Positions 3,402 to 15,245 of a stretch of 50,883 nt of DNA are shown here, piece by piece (position 1 is the first letter of the stretch; every line of letters starts with the position of its first letter). Origin of the DNA: a virus; the IMG/VR virus record IMGVR_UViG_3300036790_000239, positions 1 to 50,883 of that record; one strand, given 5' to 3'. A model generated the notes under the pieces. It made no database searches, had not been told where the DNA came from, and worked only from the letters and a program-made list of their open reading frames with translations. Both the position numbers and the translations under genes were made by a program.

Positions 3402-3652
3402 CCAGCACACCACTGGACCGCGTCCCGGTAGAGCGCATCGGCGAGCGCGCCCGGGCCGCCCGGCCGGGCCGGACGCTGCTCGTGGTCCTCACCGGGCTGC
3501 TGTTCGCCCTGGGCTGGGTGGCGTTCAAGATGCTGGCGCTGGCATGGCTGGCGCTGGCGTGGACGGGCGCGGCGGTCGCGGAAGGCTGGATGTCGGCGCG
3601 GGAGGATACGAGGGCGAAGCGGGTGAGGCGTGGGCCTGCCCGAACGGGTTAA
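3398..3652 (+). CDS. Small membrane protein
   Basis: An 84-residue protein with a basic N-terminus and two hydrophobic stretches at about residues 28-46 and 46-62 (TLLVVLTGLLFALGWVAF, then LAWLALAWTGAAVAEGW), followed by a charged tail. It overlaps the preceding stop (ATGA) and the portal start (3630). Function unknown. The position inside the packaging genes is odd for a membrane protein, but the frame is well supported by tight overlaps. Confidence 0.65.
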   Translation: MTSTPLDRVPVERIGERARAARPGRTLLVVLTGLLFALGWVAFKMLALAWLALAWTGAAVAEGWMSAREDTRAKRVRRGPARTG

Positions 3653-5606
3653 CGCCCGGCTGGGCCGCGGCCGCCTGCGGAACAGCATCGCCCCACTGGA
3701 CCTGGACGAGTACATGTCCTGGTTCTCCCCGGGCAACCCGGCCTTCCCGTGGCTGCAGACCACGATGGGCGGCGTCGACCGGGAAAAGGTCGCCACGTCC
3801 GCGGTCGCGGCGTACAAGAGTTCCGGCCCGGTGTTCTCCCTGGTGATGGCGCGGCTGCGGGTGTTCTCCCAGGTCCGGTTCCAGTGGACGCGGTTCCAGG
3901 GGTCTCAGCCCGGTGACCTGTTCGGGACACCCGAGCTGAGCGTGCTGGAGACCCCGTGGCCGAACGGGACCACCCCTGACCTGCTGGCCCGGATGGAACT
4001 GCACGACTCCCTCGCGGGGAACGCCTATGTGCGGCGCACGCGCCGGGACCGGCTGAACGTGCTGCGCCCCGACCTGGTGACGATCATCCTCGGCTCGGAC
4101 GAGGCCCCCGGCGACCCGGCCCTGGCCGCGGACACCGAAGTCGTCGGCTACCTGTACACGCCAGCGGGGGTAAAGCCGCAGATCTTCCTGCCGGACGAGC
4201 TATGCCACTTCGCCCCTGTGCCGGACCCCTGGTTCCATTTTCTCGGGCAATCGTGGATCACCCCGGTGCTGCAGGAACTGCAGGGGGACCAGGCCGCGAC
4301 CGGGCACAAGTGGGCGTTCTTCGAGAACAGCGCGAGCCCTAATATCGCCATCAAGTTCGACCCGTCGGTGACCATTGATCTGGTGAAGCAGTTCAAGGAG
4401 CTGATCGAGGAAGAGCACCAGGGTGTCCGGAAGGCTTTCCGCACCCTGTACCTGGGCGGGGGCGCCGACCCGGTGACGGTCGGGTTGTCCTTCAAGGACA
4501 TGGACTATGCGGCCCTGCAGGGCCGCGCTGAGAGCCGCCTCGCCGCAGCTGCGGGGGTCCACCCGACGATCGCGGGGTTCGCGGAAGGGCTGCAGGGCTC
4601 ATCCCTGAACGCGGGCAACTTCCAGGCGGCCAGGCGCCTGTTCGGCGAGACGACCCTGGCTCACCTGTGGGGCAACGCGGCGGCGTCGCTGCAGGCCATC
4701 CTGCGCGCCCCGGATCCCGGCGCGTCCCTGTGGTACGACGACCGGATCCCGTTCCTGCGGCAGGATGCCAGCGATCAGGCTGGTATCCAGAGCCAGCAGG
4801 CGGCGACGATCACCGGCCTGATCCGGGACGGTTTCACCCCGGAGTCGGCCACGCTGGCGGTCACGAACTCGGACTGGTCACTCCTGGTTCACAGTGGCTA
4901 CATATCGGTGCAGCTCTGGCAGCCGGGGACGGAAAGCCCGGCCCACCCCGAACCTGGTGCCGACAGCCCGGCCGCCCCGGCCGGGGCGGCCGCGTCATCA
5001 CCCGATGGCAGCGGCAACGGCAAGGTGCCTGCGGCGGGCAGCGGCCACGCCGCCATCGCGGCCGCGTCACCGCGTGCTCTGGGCGGCTACCCGGCCGGAA
5101 GCGAGCCCGGGGACCGCTCAGGCATGATCTCGCTTGACCTGGTACCCGGCACCATCCCAACCGTCCCCGGCGGTCTTGACGACCACCACATCACCATCGT
5201 CTACCTCGGCGCGGACGTGGACGATGAGGCGTTCGCGCAGGCCTGCGGCCGGGCCGCGCAGGCGGCGGCTGGAGTGGGCGCCCCGCTGGCCGGGGCCGCG
5301 GAAGGCCTGGCCGTGTTCCCGCCCTCGGACTCCTCCGGCGGGAAACTGCCGGTGTTCGCGCCCGTGGACCTGCCCGGCGGGGAGGCCCTGCGCGCCGGGC
5401 TCGCGGACCTGAGCGCCAGCGAGCACGGCGAGTGGGTGCCGCGCATCACCCTGGCCTACGCCGGCCCGGGCGAGCCGCTGCCCGGCCCGGTGCCGCCCAC
5501 CCCGCTGGAGTTCACCCACCTGTCGGTGCACCGGGGCGGCGATGTGATGCGGTTCCCGCTCGGTGCCGCAGTCGCCAACGGCAAAGTCCCGGCCGCGGCG
5601 CGTTAG
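3630..5606 (+). CDS. Portal protein with C-terminal 2H-phosphoesterase-like domain
   Basis: A 658-residue protein from GTG 3630 (GGGTGAGG upstream). Residues 1-430 follow the HK97-type portal pattern: MSWFSPGNPAF, KSSGPVFSLVMARLRVFSQVRFQW, a LAGNAYVRR core, and the GHKWAFFENSASPNIAIKF and GGGADPVTVGLSFKDMDYAALQ stretches near the stem. It forms the ring through which DNA enters. After a Pro/Ala linker, about residues 485-640 carry HHITIVYLG and WVPRITLAY, the two H-x-T motifs of 2'-5' RNA ligase/2H phosphoesterases, with the second His replaced by Arg. NGKVPAA occurs near residue 461 and again near 649, bracketing this domain. The enzyme activity is therefore doubtful. Confidence 0.88.
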   Translation: MGLPERVNARLGRGRLRNSIAPLDLDEYMSWFSPGNPAFPWLQTTMGGVDREKVATSAVAAYKSSGPVFSLVMARLRVFSQVRFQWTRFQGSQPGDLFGTPELSVLETPWPNGTTPDLLARMELHDSLAGNAYVRRTRRDRLNVLRPDLVTIILGSDEAPGDPALAADTEVVGYLYTPAGVKPQIFLPDELCHFAPVPDPWFHFLGQSWITPVLQELQGDQAATGHKWAFFENSASPNIAIKFDPSVTIDLVKQFKELIEEEHQGVRKAFRTLYLGGGADPVTVGLSFKDMDYAALQGRAESRLAAAAGVHPTIAGFAEGLQGSSLNAGNFQAARRLFGETTLAHLWGNAAASLQAILRAPDPGASLWYDDRIPFLRQDASDQAGIQSQQAATITGLIRDGFTPESATLAVTNSDWSLLVHSGYISVQLWQPGTESPAHPEPGADSPAAPAGAAASSPDGSGNGKVPAAGSGHAAIAAASPRALGGYPAGSEPGDRSGMISLDLVPGTIPTVPGGLDDHHITIVYLGADVDDEAFAQACGRAAQAAAGVGAPLAGAAEGLAVFPPSDSSGGKLPVFAPVDLPGGEALRAGLADLSASEHGEWVPRITLAYAGPGEPLPGPVPPTPLEFTHLSVHRGGDVMRFPLGAAVANGKVPAAAR

Positions 5607-6046
5607 GCAGCCGGAATACGCTGGCGCGGCCGGCGGTTGGCTGCCTGCTCAGTGGGCGACCGCACATCCTGCCAGCGGCCACAGACCCGAATGCCGCGTG
5701 CCCCGTACCGCTTGTAATCCTGGGCCTCTGGATTCGCGCAACGATCCAGCATCTTGTGCCAAGTCTGGTAAAGCGGGTGCTTGCCAAGGCCGTGCGTCAC
5801 CGCGGGATTAGCGGTCCGGTTGCGTTCGGCAATTGCCCGGCGCTTATGGCAGCCACAGGACACAATCTGGCCCCGGCAGAAGTCAGCTAGACCGGTTGTC
5901 ACCTCCGCGCCGCACTCACAGCGGCACAGCACGGCCCGGCGCCCGTAGGGCAACGCCTTCGTGGGAGCGAAGCGCATCTCCCGAACGACGGTCAGAAAGC
6001 CGGAAACCTGTCCGGGCTCAACGAACAACTTCGGGACATTGCCCAT
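5603..6046 (-). CDS. Decayed selfish-type DNA-binding/nuclease protein
   Basis: The only leftward gene in the structural block (147 residues). Its N-terminus carries CRCECGAEVTTGLADFCRGQIVSCGCH, and later HGLGKHPLYQTWHKMLDRC and YGARGIRVCGRW, the pattern of a phage mobile-protein family. Complete members continue after GRW with a FxNFLxDMG and SLDRIDN...NCRW segment before the TPTEQANNRR tail. Here GRWQDVR joins directly to SPTEQAANRR, so about 35 residues including the likely active part seem missing. GGAGGG precedes ATG 6046. The stop overlaps the portal stop end to end. Family identity is from memory of its motifs; activity unlikely. Confidence 0.65.
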   Translation of the reverse strand: MGNVPKLFVEPGQVSGFLTVVREMRFAPTKALPYGRRAVLCRCECGAEVTTGLADFCRGQIVSCGCHKRRAIAERNRTANPAVTHGLGKHPLYQTWHKMLDRCANPEAQDYKRYGARGIRVCGRWQDVRSPTEQAANRRPRQRIPAA

Positions 6047-6102
6047 AACTCGTGCCCTCCCATTCCTGCCGGAGCCGATCCCATTGTAGAGGTGAATGCT
6101 TG

Positions 6103-9100
6103 ATGCCCGTATCTCGGCGCGCGCGGGGTAACAGTGAGGATGGCTGGTACCGGATAAATAACCTGGCCAATGGCCCTACGCAGATACTCATTTACTCTGA
6201 GATCGGGTTCTGGGGCGTCACGGCGCAGGACTTCATCCGGGACCTGGGCGCCGTCAGCGGCCCGGTAGAGGTCAAGATCAACAGTCCCGGGGGCGACGTC
6301 TTCGACGCTTTCGCGATCTACCAGGCACTGGCGTCGCGGCCCGGGGTCACGACGATCGTGGACTCCCTCGCCGCGTCGGCCGCGTCGGTGATCGCGATGG
6401 CCGGCGAGCAGCGCCTGATGGCGAAGACCTCCCAGCTCATGATCCACGACGCCTGGACGGTCAGCGACGGGAACGCCGACGACCTGCGGCACATGGCCGG
6501 GCGGCTGGACATCACCTCCGCGCAGATCGCCGGGGTGTATGCGGACGCGGCGGGCGGCAGCGCGGATGACTGGCGCGAGCAGATGCGCGCCGAGACCTGG
6601 TACACGCCGGAGCAGGCGCTGGACGCCGGGCTGATCACCGGCATCATCCCCGCCGGGCGCACCCCGGCCCCGGCCGGCGCTGGAGCGGCGGCAGCAGGCG
6701 CGGGCATCCAGGCGTCCGCGCAGCAGCACCCGCAGGCCGCGGTGCCGCTGGGTGACGGCTGGGTCCAGGACCCCGACGGCACGGTGCGGTTCGACCCCGA
6801 CGGCGACGGCGACGACGACTCGACACCTGAGGGCGACACCGACCACGACTACTGGGCGGCCGACGGCACGCCGCTGCAGCCGGTGCCGCCGTGCCCGGCC
6901 ATGCCAGCGGCCCGCGCCGAGCCCGGCGTGAACGCCGCGGGTGCGCGCCATGAGCCGATCGCCGGCGCCCACTCCCACCCGCACCCCGCCTACGGCTCCC
7001 AGGGCGGCGACGCGATGCATTCCCACATGCACGAGCACGCCATGGACGCCTCCCACGACCACGCCCACGGCGGCGGCGATGACACGGGCGGCGACGGAAG
7101 CCAGGACTCCGCCGCGGCAGCGATCCGGGCTCACTTCGGGCTCACGGATGAGCAGGCGCAGGCCCTCCCGGAGGCCGAGCGGGCGCTGCTGCTGGCCAGC
7201 CTGGGCGGCCCTGGCCACCGCATCCTTGCCGCCGATGCCGACGGCAGCCCGTGGGACGCCGCCAGAGCGTGGGCCAGCGGCGCGGCCTCCGATGACCCGG
7301 CCGCGTTCTACAGCGGCATCTGCGCCGGGAAGAAGGCCGGGGACCCCGCCACCCAGGCGGCGCATGCCCTCCCGCACCACTACCAGCCGTCCGGGCCGCC
7401 GAACGCGGCCGGGGTCCGCAACTCACTGTCGCGCCTGCCGCAGACCCAGGGCCTGACGAACGAGGCGGCGGCGAAGTCGCACCTCCAGGCGCACATGAAG
7501 GCCATCAACCCGGACTGGGAGCCATCGGACACCGCAGCCCCTCAGCCGGAAGGGGGCGCCGGCGGCCTCCCGCAGGCACGCAATCCCAGTCCCCCCACTC
7601 CCGCCACGGCGCAGAGCGCCGCACCAGGCAGTACCGGGCCGCACCCGCACCCGGATGGTCACGCAGTACAGGAAGGAAACACCGTGACAACCATGAGCAT
7701 CGAGGACCGGGCGGCCCGGCGCGGCGAGATCGAGGCCCGGCTGACCGAGATCGGCGGCGAGCACGGGGACCGCGAGTTCCCGGAGCCGGTCCAGGCCGAG
7801 TGGGACACGCTGACCGCCGAACTGGACGGGCACGCGCAGCTGCTCGCCCGCCACGAGGAGGGCATCAAGGCCCGGCGGGAGCGCCTCGGCGCCATCGCCG
7901 CCCGCCAGCAGGGCGAAAGGGTGGACGGCGGCGCGGCCGGGTACACCGCGCCGGACGGTGGCACCGACGGCGCGCAGGCGCCCGGGCGCGTGCCGCCCGC
8001 ATACCGCGGCCCGCAGAACCGCGCGCCCGGCTCCCCGGCGCTGACCCACGGCCGCACGGACACCTCCATCTACGACCTCGATGACCTGCGTAAGCGGTCC
8101 AGGTCGGCCGAGGAGATGGTGGCACTGTGCCGGGACAACGCGCTGCACGCGGTCGAGCGCGCCGTCTTCCCCGGCTCCCCGGACCGGGAGAGGGCGCAGG
8201 CCACCGTTGAGCGGCTGCTGGCCCGCGTGCCCGACGAGAACGGCACCCTGGCCAAGCGGATCCTGGCCACCGGCAACCCGGTGTACGCGCGGGCGTGGGG
8301 ACGCGCGGTCGCGCGGGTGTCCACCTCGGTCCTCACGCAGGACGAGATCATGGCGCTGTCGCTGGGCACCGGGTCGGACGGCGGGTTCGCGGTGCCGTTC
8401 GAGCTGGACCCGACGATCATCCTCACGTCCGATTCGGCTATCAGCCCCCTGCGGGCGATCTCCCGGGTCGTGCAGATCACCGGCAAGGAGTACGACCTGG
8501 TCACCTCCACCGGGATCACCGTCACCCGGTCGGCCGAGGCGTCGGCCGTCCCGGAGAACAACCCCACCCTCGCGCAGCCGACGATCAAGGCCGAGCGGGT
8601 CACCGGCTTCATCCCGTTCTCGGTCGAGGTCGAGCAGGACTGGCAGGCCATGCAGTCCGAGATGATGATGCTGCTGGCCGACGCGAAGGACGTGGAGGAG
8701 TGCTCCTCGTTCACGCTCGGCGACGGCACCGGCACCAACGCCAGCGGCATCATCGGCACCCTGTCCAGCGGCAGCAACGTGAGCGGGACCGGCGGCTCGG
8801 GCGCTCTCGCGGCCGAGGACCTGGACGCGCTGGAGAACGCCGCGGCTCCCCGGTTCCGTCCCCGGGCCGTGTGGATGGCCAGCAAGACGGCCTACAACGC
8901 CTACCGCGCCCTCCTGGCCGCGCAGGCGTCCTCGGCCGGTGACGACTGGGCCCGCCCGTCCGAGGGCCAGCCGCCGCGGCTGCGGGGATACGCGGCCTAC
9001 GAGAACTCCGAGATGACCACCGCCCACACCACGGGCAGCAAGGTGATCATCCTCGGCGACTTCGGCCGCGGCTTCCTGATCGTCGATCGCCTCGGGATGA

Positions 9101-9234
9101 GCGTGGAACTCGTGCCGCACCTGGTCGATCAGGCCACGGCTCGTCCCACGGGCGAGCGGGGAATTCTGGCAATTTGGAGGAATAACAGCCGCGTGATCAT
9201 CGACCGGGCATTCACCCTGCTTGTCGTCGCGTAG
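6103..9234 (+). CDS. Capsid maturation protease fused to HK97-type major capsid protein
   Basis: A single 1043-residue frame from ATG 6103 (AGAGGTG upstream). Residues 15-190 are a ClpP-like (S14) protease: INSPGGDVFDAFAIYQAL, the Ser motif SLAASAASVIAMAG (Ser near 92) and QLMIHDAW (His near 115). Residues 287-325 are rich in His. Residues about 370-470 include ALPHHYQPSGPPNAAGVRNSLSRLPQTQ, a segment often attached to prohead proteases. Residues 528-1043 are the capsid: a coiled-coil delta domain (IEDRAARRGEIEARL) and the HK97 fold up to FTLLVVA. No stop separates them. A ribosome binding site before GTG 7684 should allow separate capsid synthesis. Confidence 0.9.
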   Translation: MPVSRRARGNSEDGWYRINNLANGPTQILIYSEIGFWGVTAQDFIRDLGAVSGPVEVKINSPGGDVFDAFAIYQALASRPGVTTIVDSLAASAASVIAMAGEQRLMAKTSQLMIHDAWTVSDGNADDLRHMAGRLDITSAQIAGVYADAAGGSADDWREQMRAETWYTPEQALDAGLITGIIPAGRTPAPAGAGAAAAGAGIQASAQQHPQAAVPLGDGWVQDPDGTVRFDPDGDGDDDSTPEGDTDHDYWAADGTPLQPVPPCPAMPAARAEPGVNAAGARHEPIAGAHSHPHPAYGSQGGDAMHSHMHEHAMDASHDHAHGGGDDTGGDGSQDSAAAAIRAHFGLTDEQAQALPEAERALLLASLGGPGHRILAADADGSPWDAARAWASGAASDDPAAFYSGICAGKKAGDPATQAAHALPHHYQPSGPPNAAGVRNSLSRLPQTQGLTNEAAAKSHLQAHMKAINPDWEPSDTAAPQPEGGAGGLPQARNPSPPTPATAQSAAPGSTGPHPHPDGHAVQEGNTVTTMSIEDRAARRGEIEARLTEIGGEHGDREFPEPVQAEWDTLTAELDGHAQLLARHEEGIKARRERLGAIAARQQGERVDGGAAGYTAPDGGTDGAQAPGRVPPAYRGPQNRAPGSPALTHGRTDTSIYDLDDLRKRSRSAEEMVALCRDNALHAVERAVFPGSPDRERAQATVERLLARVPDENGTLAKRILATGNPVYARAWGRAVARVSTSVLTQDEIMALSLGTGSDGGFAVPFELDPTIILTSDSAISPLRAISRVVQITGKEYDLVTSTGITVTRSAEASAVPENNPTLAQPTIKAERVTGFIPFSVEVEQDWQAMQSEMMMLLADAKDVEECSSFTLGDGTGTNASGIIGTLSSGSNVSGTGGSGALAAEDLDALENAAAPRFRPRAVWMASKTAYNAYRALLAAQASSAGDDWARPSEGQPPRLRGYAAYENSEMTTAHTTGSKVIILGDFGRGFLIVDRLGMSVELVPHLVDQATARPTGERGILAIWRNNSRVIIDRAFTLLVVA
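7671..7686 (+). promoter_or_regulatory. Internal ribosome binding site and GTG start for free capsid protein
   Basis: GGAAGG at 7671-7676 stands 7 bases before GTG 7684, in frame with the fusion. Initiation here gives a 516-residue protein beginning MTTMSIEDRAARRGE, the expected size and start of an HK97-type capsid precursor with its delta domain. This would supply hundreds of capsid copies against few protease copies. Confidence 0.75.
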
Positions 9235-9298
9235 CAGGCCCGGTTCTGCGGCCAGGCGCTCCTGTTCGGCTAACCCCCTGGCCAGGAGGTGTCCCCCG

Positions 9299-9529
9299 TT
9301 GTCTCCTGACCGCATCGCTGCCTCCTACCGCCCGGACGGTTCCTGGGCCTGCACGCGGGACCGGGTCACCAGTCCCTGTGGTGAATGCGACGGCTGCCGC
9401 CACGTCCAGGCCGGGAACCTCGGCGCCGCGCCGGGCCAGCCCGGCGGCCTGCGCCTGTCCGATGACTCCAGGGGCGGCTTCGCGGTACCCCGCGAACTGG
9501 CCGGGCATCCCATCCGCCGCACCCGCTGA
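9299..9529 (+). CDS. Small Cys-rich protein
   Basis: About 76 residues from TTG 9299, chosen because GGAGG at 9285-9289 is 9 bases upstream and an earlier start would run back into the capsid gene. It contains CTRDRVTSPCGECDGCRH, a possible metal site, followed by a Gly-rich tail. Function unknown; it lies in the head-gene block between the capsid and the next small gene. Confidence 0.5.
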   Translation: MSPDRIAASYRPDGSWACTRDRVTSPCGECDGCRHVQAGNLGAAPGQPGGLRLSDDSRGGFAVPRELAGHPIRRTR

Positions 9530-9541
9530 AAGGAAAACGCC

Positions 9542-9775
9542 ATGGCCGAGGGCAAGGTTCTTGTGGCCGCCACGTCCGCCACGTTCGACTTCGAGGGCAA
9601 GCGGGTCTGGCTCCAGCAGGGCCGTACCACGGCCCGCGAGGGACACCCGGTCACCAGGGGCCGTGAGCACCTGTGGAAGCCGCTGGCCGTGGACTTCGAG
9701 ACCGAAGCGCCAAAGGCCCCGGCGGCGAAGGGCCAGCAGGCCGCGCAGTCAAGATCCGGCCAGAAGACGGCCTGA
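9542..9775 (+). CDS. Small head-region protein
   Basis: A 77-residue protein with AAAGGA before ATG 9542. The N-terminal 50 residues are beta-like (KVLVAATSATFDFEGKRVWLQQGRTTAREGHPV) and the tail is Ala/Gln/Lys rich. The position after the capsid suggests a head completion or decoration role (inference). Confidence 0.65.
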   Translation: MAEGKVLVAATSATFDFEGKRVWLQQGRTTAREGHPVTRGREHLWKPLAVDFETEAPKAPAAKGQQAAQSRSGQKTA

Positions 9776-11601: not shown

Positions 11602-14424
11602 GTGTCCACGCAACTGTTCCTGCGCAACATGGCGTCCGACCTGGTGGCGTCCGGCAACCTGGCGCTGTGGCCGGTGCGCGGCACCACCTCGGTCAGCGTC
11701 GCGACCACCACCATCGCGTCCGGCACCGACATTCAGGCCACCTACACCGCGGGCGGCACCGCGCTGGTGTGGCTGAGCCCGCCGCTCGCCGCCGTGTCCA
11801 TCTCGGGTGCCATCACCGTTAACATCCGCGGCAAAGAGTCGCTGTCCACGGTGAACGCGTGCGCCGGGATCAAGATCGAGCGCACTGACGGTCAGGGGAA
11901 CGTGCTCGGCACCCTGGTGAGCGACCAGGCGATCACCGGGACCGAGTTCACCACCTCCGACGCGGCCACGTCCGGGTCCGCGACGCGGACCCCCGCGGCG
12001 GTCAGCCTGAACGACGGGGACCGGCTCAAGGTCACCGTGTACACCAGGAACGCGGGCACGATGGCGTCCGGCACCGTGACCTATACCATCGACGCGCCCA
12101 CCTCGGGCAATGCCGGGGACAGCTTCGTCACGTTCACCGAGACGCTGGCCTACCTGCCGCCCACCGTCCCGTGGGTGTGCGGCGACGGTGCCAGCTCGGC
12201 CCTGGCCACCTGCCCGCTGACCGTGCCGGTGCCGGTGCCCGCCGGGTCGGTCATCGCGGTGTTCGGCAGCTCCAGCTCCGGTGGCATCACCGGGGTGGCT
12301 GACAGCCGGTCCAATACGTACACGTTCCGCAAGTCGGTCACCACCAGCCAGAACGACGGCTACTACTCCGGGGCCATCGCCACGGCGTTGCAGGCCGGTG
12401 ACATCATCACCGTGTCCAAGTCCGGGGCGTCCGGCGGGATGGTGTGCTCCGCGGTCGCGGAGCCGCGGGCCACCGCGGTGGACACCACCCCGAGCGTCAC
12501 CGCGGCCGGGACCAGCACCGCGCCGTCCGCGACCAGCGGCACCCTGGGCCAGGCGGCCGAGACCCTGATCGCGTTCATCTCCAACGCCGGGTCCACCCAG
12601 CCGGTGTGGACCGCCGCATCCGGGTTCGACGCGCCCGGGGTGGGCGGCGGCGCGTCGAATGTGTCCGGGTCGGTGCACGGGTCCACCAGTTACAAGACGG
12701 TGGCCGCGACGACCGCGCAGACCGCGTCGGCCGCGCTGGGCAGTTCGCTGGCGTGGGAAGTCATCGTTGCCTGCATCAAGATCTCCTGGCCGGCGGCGGG
12801 GACGGCCGCAGGGTCCAGCAGTGCATCGGGTGACCTGACCCCGGCGAATACGACGTGGGAGCTGGACGGGTCCGCGGCGAACAGCCCGGATGCGACCGGC
12901 GCCCCGGGGGAGATCTACGCCACCGCCGGGACCGCTGCGAACACCTCGGCCACCACCGCCACCGCCACGGCGGCGCTGGCCGTGACTGGCTCGGCCAGCG
13001 CCAGCAGCCACACTGCGGGCAGCGTGGCCGGGACGTTCCCGGTGGCCGCAACGGCCAGCAGCACCAGCGCGGCCACCGGGGCGTTCCTCCCAGCGGTGAT
13101 CACCGGCACCGCGACTGCCACGAGCAGCGCGGCCGGGGCTGCCACGCAGGTGCTTGCCGCGATGGGCAGCGCCGCGAACATGCCGGCCGCAGCCGGGACG
13201 CTGCTGTTCGCCCCGGCGAAGCTGGCGGCAGCGGCCGCTGCCGCCTCCAGCGCGGCCGGGTTCCTGAACTACCGGACCACCGGTTCGGCGGCCGCTAGCA
13301 GCTCGGCGGCCGGTGCGCTCACCTCGGTACTCACCGCGGCGGCCAGCGCGGGCGGGGCCAGCACTGCGGCCGGGGACATCAGCCAGACTCTGGCTGCCAC
13401 CGGCAGCGCGGTGGCCACCTCGTCCGCGCCAGGCGCCCTGCTGTTTGTCCCGGCGGCGCTGGCGGCCACGGCCACGAGCACGACGGCCGCAGCCGGGCTC
13501 GTGGATTACACCACCTCCGGGACGGCCGGTTCGGCCAGCGCGGCGGCCGGCACCCTGACCGGGGTTCTGGCCGTGGCCGGCCCGGCCGCCAGCACCAGCA
13601 CTGCCACTGGCGGCCCGGCCCAGGCGCTGGCCGCCAGTGCCACCGCGGCGGCCAGCTCGGCGGCGGCCGGGCTCGTGGACTACCTGACAGCGGGCCGCGC
13701 GGCTAGCAGCTCGGCCGCGTCCGGGGTCACCACTGCTGCCCTGGAAGCAGGCGCGTCCGCCGTGGCCGTCAGCTCTGCGGCCGGGACCCTGCTGTTCGGC
13801 TATGCGCAACTCTCGGGAGACGCCCCGGACGCGTCAGCCGCAGTTGGGGACCTGACCACCGCTGGCCAGGTCGCACTCACCGGCTCCGCGAGCCACGCCA
13901 GCATTACGGCTGGGGCGCTGATCCTGGCCCCGGGTGCGGTCGACGGCGTGGCCACTGCCACGTCCACCGCATCGGGCGTGTTCGCACCCGCAGTGATCAC
14001 CGGCTCGGCGGCCAGCACCGCGGCCGCTAGCGGCGACGTGGCCGCGACGCTGACGGCCGCCGGCACGGCGGCTGGTGGCAGCACGGCCAGCGGGGTCCTG
14101 GCACCGGCCGCAGGCGTGGCTGGAACTGCGGCGGCCTCCAGTAGCGCATCCGGCGCGTTCCTGGCCGCGGCGCTCGCCGGGACCGCCGCCGGGCTCAGTT
14201 CCGCGTCCGGCGGCGTGGCCGTGTCGCAGCCAGCGGCATACGGGACCGCGGTCGCGGCCCAGATGCCCTTGCCGGCCGCCCTGGCCGGGCAGCTCCTCAT
14301 CCCGCAGGCGGTGACCGGGATCATGGCGCTCCCGCAGGCGATACAGGGACAAGGGCAGGCCGCGGCGGCCAGGTCACAGCAGGGCCAGATGATGCTCGCG
14401 CACGCGGAGGGAGGCCGCCCGTGA
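11602..14424 (+). CDS. Large repeat-containing virion protein (head fibre/decoration candidate)
   Basis: A 940-residue protein from GTG 11602 (GGGAGG 7 bases upstream). Residues 1-185 form a beta-rich domain (TDIQATYTAGGTALVWL, AITVNIRGKESLS, VTYTIDAPTS). Residues 190-395 form a second (VPAGSVIAVFGSSSSGGITG, NTYTFRKSVTTS). Residues 400-880 are about 24 tandem repeats of some 20 residues. A basic Gln/Ala-rich tail ends it. Its place between capsid and head-tail connector suggests a long surface fibre or capsid decoration rather than a tail tip protein (inference). The repeat codons vary, so the repeat is old at protein level. Confidence 0.75.
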   Translation: MSTQLFLRNMASDLVASGNLALWPVRGTTSVSVATTTIASGTDIQATYTAGGTALVWLSPPLAAVSISGAITVNIRGKESLSTVNACAGIKIERTDGQGNVLGTLVSDQAITGTEFTTSDAATSGSATRTPAAVSLNDGDRLKVTVYTRNAGTMASGTVTYTIDAPTSGNAGDSFVTFTETLAYLPPTVPWVCGDGASSALATCPLTVPVPVPAGSVIAVFGSSSSGGITGVADSRSNTYTFRKSVTTSQNDGYYSGAIATALQAGDIITVSKSGASGGMVCSAVAEPRATAVDTTPSVTAAGTSTAPSATSGTLGQAAETLIAFISNAGSTQPVWTAASGFDAPGVGGGASNVSGSVHGSTSYKTVAATTAQTASAALGSSLAWEVIVACIKISWPAAGTAAGSSSASGDLTPANTTWELDGSAANSPDATGAPGEIYATAGTAANTSATTATATAALAVTGSASASSHTAGSVAGTFPVAATASSTSAATGAFLPAVITGTATATSSAAGAATQVLAAMGSAANMPAAAGTLLFAPAKLAAAAAAASSAAGFLNYRTTGSAAASSSAAGALTSVLTAAASAGGASTAAGDISQTLAATGSAVATSSAPGALLFVPAALAATATSTTAAAGLVDYTTSGTAGSASAAAGTLTGVLAVAGPAASTSTATGGPAQALAASATAAASSAAAGLVDYLTAGRAASSSAASGVTTAALEAGASAVAVSSAAGTLLFGYAQLSGDAPDASAAVGDLTTAGQVALTGSASHASITAGALILAPGAVDGVATATSTASGVFAPAVITGSAASTAAASGDVAATLTAAGTAAGGSTASGVLAPAAGVAGTAAASSSASGAFLAAALAGTAAGLSSASGGVAVSQPAAYGTAVAAQMPLPAALAGQLLIPQAVTGIMALPQAIQGQGQAAAARSQQGQMMLAHAEGGRP
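12799..14238 (+). repeat. Tandem protein repeat, about 24 units of 20 codons
   Basis: 1440 bases encode about 24 units with the loose consensus G-[ST]-A-x-A-x-S-[ST]-A-[AS]-G-x-[LF], then 6-8 variable, mostly apolar residues. Examples are GTATATSSAAGAATQVLAAM, GSAAASSSAAGALTSVLTA and GTAAASSSASGAFLAAALA. Units are 17-22 residues. The regular length suggests a beta-solenoid or stacked short strands. Confidence 0.8.
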
Positions 14425-15245
14425 TCGGCTCCGGCGCCGTGTACCCCATCGCGTTCGACGTGCTCGATGCCACCGGCACGCTCACCCACGCTGACACGGC
14501 CAGCCTGGTCATCACCCTGCCCGACGGCACCACCGCCAGCCCCGCGATCACCGACGATGCCGTCCCGGGCCAGTACCGGCTCGCCTACCAGACCACGATG
14601 GCCGGCCGGCACACCCTTCACGCGGAAACCACGGGCCCGGTCACCGCCTACGACGACGAGTTCGATGTCAGCCCCACCCCGTGGATGGCGATCGTCTCAC
14701 TCGCCGACGCGAAGCAGCACCTGCGGATGGATCCCGCCGACACCAGCGAGGACGACGAGCTGCGAGGCTTCGTCGCGGCGGCGACGGGGGCCGTGGAGCT
14801 GTACAAGCACGAGGTGATCGCCCGCCGGTCCATCACCGATGAGATCGACCTGTGCCGGGCCGGCTACCGTGGCGCGCGCAGGTTCCGGGTCTGGTCGGCC
14901 CCCGTCATCTCCCTGGTCTCCGTGGCCAGCTGGGACGGCGCCACCACCTGGGATGTCACCCAGATGCGGGTCAGCGAGTCCGGGCTGGTCCGCGTGATGG
15001 GCGCCCTGCCGGTCAGGGGCCTGGTGGATGTCACCTACCTCGCGGGCTACCAGGTGATCCCCGACCACTACCGGCAGGGTGCCCTGGTCGTCCTGCAGCA
15101 CGCGTGGGAAAGTCAGCGCGGCGGCGGCACCGTGTCCTCCGGGGTGATCGGCCCCGAGGAAGTGCGCGTCCGGTCCGTGTCGGCTTTTACCGTGCCGAAC
15201 AAGGCGAAGGAGTATCTCGGACCGCCGCGACCGGTGGTGGCCTGA
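14421..15245 (+). CDS. Head-tail connector (gp6-like) with N-terminal Ig-like domain
   Basis: A 274-residue protein, GTG overlapping the previous stop. Residues 1-85 look like an Ig-like strand domain (YPIAFDVLDATGTLTHADTASLVITLPDG). From about residue 92, VSLADAKQHLRMDPADTSEDDELRGFVAAATGAVELY is the hallmark of phage gp6-like head-tail adaptors, continuing through VDVTYLAGYQVIPDHYRQGALVVLQHAWESQRGG. It forms the ring below the portal. The added N-terminal domain is unusual for the family, whose members are usually about 100-200 residues. Confidence 0.8.
   Translation: MIGSGAVYPIAFDVLDATGTLTHADTASLVITLPDGTTASPAITDDAVPGQYRLAYQTTMAGRHTLHAETTGPVTAYDDEFDVSPTPWMAIVSLADAKQHLRMDPADTSEDDELRGFVAAATGAVELYKHEVIARRSITDEIDLCRAGYRGARRFRVWSAPVISLVSVASWDGATTWDVTQMRVSESGLVRVMGALPVRGLVDVTYLAGYQVIPDHYRQGALVVLQHAWESQRGGGTVSSGVIGPEEVRVRSVSAFTVPNKAKEYLGPPRPVVA

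Follow-up and report, generated by a model that had tools for sequence, protein, structure and literature searches.

A single viral gene, at 6103-9234 of the window (the whole stretch of DNA that was analysed, 50,883 bases), very probably gives rise to two head proteins. From its sequence and that of its relatives, we propose a dual-product gene in which a protease-capsid fusion would be made from ATG 6103 and a delta-capsid precursor from an inner GTG at 7684, with co-assembly of the two products and self-release of the protease. The nested, in-frame capsid start that the first-pass annotation had pointed out is supported both by its conservation in a clade of homologous fusions and by its recurrence in unrelated ones.

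A Protease and a Capsid in One Frame

The frame is open throughout, encodes a product of 1043 aa, and ends at a TAG stop (9232-9234). It lies uninterrupted between the genes for the portal (3630-5606) and the head-tail adaptor (14421-15245). The single protease-linker-capsid frame described earlier was thus borne out by translation, as well as by Pfam and NCBIfam matches at both ends (Table 1). At the N-terminal end, CLP_protease scored 89 bits over residues 52-182 (Pfam cut-off 20.2), and NF045542, the family of ClpP-related head maturation proteases, scored 154 bits (curated cut-off 120). Ser92 and His115 occupy invariant columns of the alignment of this domain; Glu164 is possibly the catalytic acid, the triad being assigned by analogy with ClpP. 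At the C-terminal end, Phage_capsid (PF05065) scored 104.5 bits over residues 760-1041 (Pfam cut-off 24.2) and TIGR01554 149.6 bits (cut-off 27.5), which places this part among the HK97-type major capsid proteins. The nearest solved capsid found by phmmer is 9lw6 (E 6.8e-56, residues 519-1042). An AlphaFold model of the whole fusion, built from a ten-row alignment, was set aside (pLDDT 38.3, pTM 0.26), save for helices at residues 533-606, just past the inner start, with a pLDDT of about 70-80.

The window also encodes a terminase, a portal, a tape measure, an integrase, and a GH25 lysin, and it therefore probably derives from a temperate tailed phage. The host is probably an actinobacterium. 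Two neighbouring genes were noted in passing. The first, a 147-aa ORF between portal and protease (5603-6046, minus strand), is Cys-rich with a pattern that by eye resembles HNH/AP2-type homing proteins, and had no Pfam match. The second, downstream of the capsid (11602-14424, plus strand), encodes a repetitive 940-aa protein rich in Ala, Ser, and Thr; it had no Pfam or PHROG match, and the gene contains no DNA tandem repeats.

Table 1. Features of the fused gene and its surroundings, with positions in the window.
Feature	Position	Strand	Evidence
SD-like GAGGTGA serving the protease start (ATG 6103)	6089-6095	+	sequence; duplex energy -10.1 kcal/mol
Fused gene for a ClpP-type head maturation protease, a linker, and a major capsid protein of HK97 type	6103-9234	+	unbroken frame; Pfam, PHROG, and NCBIfam matches at both ends
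CLP_protease (S14) domain, residues 52-182	6256-6648	+	Pfam; NF045542; invariant columns
Linker motif DPDGDGDDDSTPEGDTDHDYW	6793-6855	+	alignment; common to 7/10 clade members
His-rich stretch of linker	about 6970-7071	+	sequence, alignment
ICAG...LPHHYxPxGxPNxAGVRN...HMKAINPDW segment	7318-7518	+	alignment with stand-alone proteases
Variable linker of 49 codons running up to the inner start	7537-7683	+	GC3 comparison
Inner SD GGAAGGA (core AAGGA 7673-7677), 6 nt ahead of GTG 7684	7671-7677	+	sequence; homologous sites across the clade
Capsid gene nested in the frame (516 aa from GTG): delta-like coiled-coil segment and HK97-fold capsid	7684-9234	+	
Delta-like N-terminal segment of capsid (approximate limits; helices about 7699-7920)	7684-8163	+	alignment with REQ1, Eyre, and Babsiella
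Phage_capsid fold, residues 760-1041	8380-9225	+	Pfam; phmmer to 9lw6

Ten Homologous Fusions Form One Clade

Scans with the protease alignment led to ten distinct homologous fusions, that of the window included; a first search of viral sequences, made with just the window protein, had yielded only three relatives. The other nine fusions are 50-56% identical to that of the window, and all ten form one clade with a support of 100 in the protease tree. Two lie in named Streptomycetaceae genomes, those of Actinacidiphila cocklensis (L091) and Streptomyces sp. Ag109_O5-1 (L092). The fusion is retained in every classifiable clade member, the sole unclassified row being L023, whose contig piece ends soon after the protease. 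Two rows scored as fused in the tree (L036 and L100) are not capsid fusions, and the tree's number of changes is therefore too high.

The first-pass annotation had called for a search for homologues that keep or lack the stop codon between the two genes. Besides the ten that keep the fusion, this search gave two stand-alone proteases, L009 and L010, in which a stop follows shortly after the protease C-terminus. That the genes are normally separate, as had been stated, holds for about 100 relatives scanned, but gene fusions of this kind have been described before from many phages.

Linker and Junction

The two stand-alone proteases also indicate where the protease ends. Both contain an LPHH...PNAAGVRN...HMKAINPDWEPD segment ahead of their stop; a separate capsid-like ORF starts 12 nt after the protease stop in L009 and overlaps the protease by 29 nt in L010. 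Because these proteins share the segment and then terminate, the HHYxPxGxPN stretch is, by this alignment, the protease's own C-terminal part, and the true connector amounts to only about 49 codons. The segment had no Pfam match and has been lost in four clade members. The His-rich stretch is also found in L009 and L010 and is missing from the other clade members.

The 49-codon connector has a GC3 of 0.69, against 0.90 in the protease and 0.94 in the capsid. From protease start to inner start, the distance ranges from 224 to 527 aa across the clade, with the inner start kept throughout. Separately, the motif DPDGDGDDDSTPEGDTDHxxW is nearly invariant in the seven clade members that have it and resembles acidic calcium-binding repeats.

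A Conserved Start inside the Fused Gene

The sequence agrees with the positions given earlier for GGAAGG (7671-7676) and for the in-frame GTG (7684-7686), which falls at the beginning of the delta-like segment of the capsid. The ATG at 7693 was ruled out as the inner start, since 15 nt separate it from the SD core. All ten clade members have an SD-like site with a start codon in frame, a few residues ahead of the (L)TIEGRR start of the capsid. For example, the site reads CAGGAAGGAAACACC-GTG in the window, GGAAGGAACGAC-ATG in L016, CAGGAAGGACAGTC-ATG in L028, GGAGAGGAACCGAAC-ATG in L091, and AAGGGAACCAGGCA-ATG in L020, the weakest in the clade. The homologues have ATG where the window has GTG, a difference that was counted against the site.

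At the conserved junction Met, a strong SD is present in 7/8 cases, while 1.1 are expected from synonymous shuffles, and 0/300 shuffles scored as high. Among the other conserved internal Met columns of the protease or capsid, none exceeded every synonymous shuffle. Moreover, GC3 over the 15 codons before the inner start is 0.53-0.73 in 10/10 members, against about 0.93, and in 6/10 members the local RNA near this start folds less strongly than at least 96% of the synonymous shuffles. A conserved SD and start thus open a second functional unit within the frame, and we infer that this start is used for translation. No sigma-70-like promoter was detected in 5500-9700 by a search poorly suited to GC-rich actinobacterial phage.

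Inner Starts in Unrelated Fusions

Of 30 fusions of the NF045540 type, from enterobacterial, Pasteurellaceae, and related sources, 28 contain the junction Met, and all 28 have an SD there (9.6 expected from synonymous shuffles; no shuffle above 16). We also compiled 18 named fusions from several lineages, with junction starts chosen by inspection. They include Gifsy-2, Fels-1, mEp460, RRH1, GMA5, Rahul, McGonagall, Schiebs, BlueFeather, Root, Circum, REQ1, Jflix2, and Madraxi. A strong SD precedes the junction ATG in 15/18 of these, against 7/216 of their other in-frame ATGs; the background in about 100 stand-alone protease ORFs is 24/884. Synonymous shuffles predict 7.6 SDs for the 15 observed, and for several lineages the encoded residues (Lys-Glu and the like) by themselves make an SD likely, with shuffle probabilities of 0.4-1.0. 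In Shagrat and EricDab, the junction SD is poor or absent.

The same layout recurs in the RRH1-type, Arthrobacter, Circum, and Rhodococcus cluster CF fusions, and about six protease/capsid pairings were counted among fusions with an inner start. The S14 protease is joined to the window-type capsid, to the Gifsy-2-type capsid, and to an Arthrobacter-AN-like capsid (L110). The S78 protease is joined to the window-type capsid in cluster CF (tested for REQ1), and S78-like proteases to the RRH1/AN-type and Circum-type capsids (for RRH1 and Circum, S78 comes from annotation or inspection). The L110 gene (5887-7752, in a Microbacterium sp. TNHR37B prophage) encodes a ClpP-type protease with its AN-like capsid and has the junction AAAAGGAAACCCTC-ATG.

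Relation to Known Fusions and Nested Genes

Fusions as such are not new. NCBIfam already names protease/major capsid fusion proteins (NF045540 and NF045541), and the literature refers to a "tripartite capsid gene" of Gifsy-2 (Effantin et al. 2010, Virology 402:355, pmid 20427067, as cited in PMC3121763 and PMC8538268). The window gene resembles this type in combining an N-terminal ClpP-like protease, a middle segment, and an HK97-fold capsid in a single frame, and Gifsy-2, Fels-1, mEp460, and their relatives have GAGGA or GAGG ahead of the junction Met. It differs in its capsid family, and the protease tree separates the two. Against NF045540, the window protein scored 169.8 bits (cut-off 475), matching in the protease part only (residues 26-186), and two further clade members scored 163 and 177 bits.

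In the Rhodococcus cluster CF fusions (REQ1, Jflix2, Shagrat, and Madraxi; PMC13313380), the capsid portion is nearer to the window capsid than any other named one (41-48% identical), the gene likewise follows the portal, and an inner SD with ATG is found in 3/4; the protease, in contrast, is of the HK97 S78 type (TIGR01543). A "major capsid and protease fusion" is annotated in Arthrobacter AM/AU/AN and RRH1 phages (PMC5513430), and such fusions are called "common in small-genome siphoviruses" (PMC9671004). Gordonia phages have fusions annotated likewise. Most of these Arthrobacter, Gordonia, and RRH1-type Rhodococcus fusions share a junction ATG with an SD, but their capsid family differs from that of the window and, mostly, so does their protease family. 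A comparison of L001-L004 with 7684-9231 of the window gave one capsid lineage that has an S78 protease in cluster CF and, in the clade of the window, a ClpP-type one (S14); therefore, either one protease replaced the other or fusion took place on two occasions.

Nested genes with an in-frame inner start within a protease gene are known from lambda (C/Nu3) and Mu (I/Z). There, as proposed here, the inner start yields extra copies of an assembly partner, but the nested product is a scaffold, whereas that of the window would be a capsid precursor with a delta-like segment.

The novelty first claimed was overstated for the fusion, given Gifsy-2, the AM/AU/AN, RRH1, and CF phages, and the two NCBIfam families, although the window clade does lie outside the NCBIfam fusion model. 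In the accessible parts of the literature on prohead proteases and their fusions, we found no description of the inner start, and the text of a bacterial N-terminomics study contained no data on prophages. Fusion genes are known; their conserved inner start seems to have gone unremarked hitherto.

Predicted Products, Their Ratio, and Alternative Readings

Initiation at ATG 6103 would give the protease-linker-delta-capsid fusion; since a ribosome starting there would necessarily make the fusion, no free protease would be translated. Independent initiation at GTG 7684 would give the delta-capsid precursor alone, and the two kinds of subunits, sharing one capsid fold, would co-assemble into the procapsid. 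Because the N-termini of HK97-fold proteins face the procapsid interior, the fusion subunits, which alone would carry a protease there, may reasonably be taken to place and tether it inside. The protease would then cut the linker and delta segments and free itself, leaving a single kind of mature capsid subunit.

The proposal of few fusions and many free capsids finds no support in SD strength: the energies are -10.1 kcal/mol at the protease start and -6.5 kcal/mol at the inner start of the window, and about equal across the clade. The one argument for an excess is a volume estimate, presuming T=7 and HK97 dimensions, by which the 527-residue extension, if present in 415 copies, would take up about 100% of the procapsid interior; for the window, free subunits should therefore be the majority. 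In the short-linker clade members, the share is 0.43 and the space argument is weaker.

The inner start could make the free capsid while the fusion is incidental read-through, its tethering having no role in protease packaging. We regard this as unlikely: the linker does vary in sequence and length, and most relatives lack the fusion, but its retention throughout the classifiable clade and its occurrence in about six pairings speak for a role, and no separate protease product is left to enter alone. Quite improbable, in our view, is that all capsid is made as a polyprotein-like 1:1 fusion from which the protease cleaves itself, the inner SD being an unused relic of a separate capsid gene. The continuous ORF, from which any protease made is fusion, and the strong SD at the protease start would fit such a gene, and the low GC3 could be a remnant of a former intergenic stretch. 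However, the inner site persists in proteins that are only 50-56% identical and stands out against synonymous shuffles, it recurs in unrelated fusions, and the load would be too large for the T=7 shell of the window, even if short-linker members would fit. Finally, a sequencing or assembly error, with a lost stop or an indel merging two genes, deserves next to no credence, for although the window is a single virus record and L009 and L010 do have the stop, the same fusion occurs in ten distinct homologues, two of them on Streptomycetaceae contigs, and so is, on this comparison, no artefact.

Implications

For many phages, it is not understood how a suitable number of maturation proteases is loaded into the procapsid. 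A gene whose capsid precursor comes in a tethered and a free form, as we propose here, would be a simple device for dosing the protease. We think it fairly likely that the protease-capsid fusion genes of phages, nearly without exception and across about six unrelated protease/capsid pairings, encode two products by way of an inner ribosome-binding site, that covalent tethering to a minority of subunits has recurrently served to dose and enclose the protease, and that the start from which the major product is really made goes unnoticed in current annotation. Many deposited fusion genes would then, if inner starts are general, carry a wrong N-terminus for the most abundant virion precursor.
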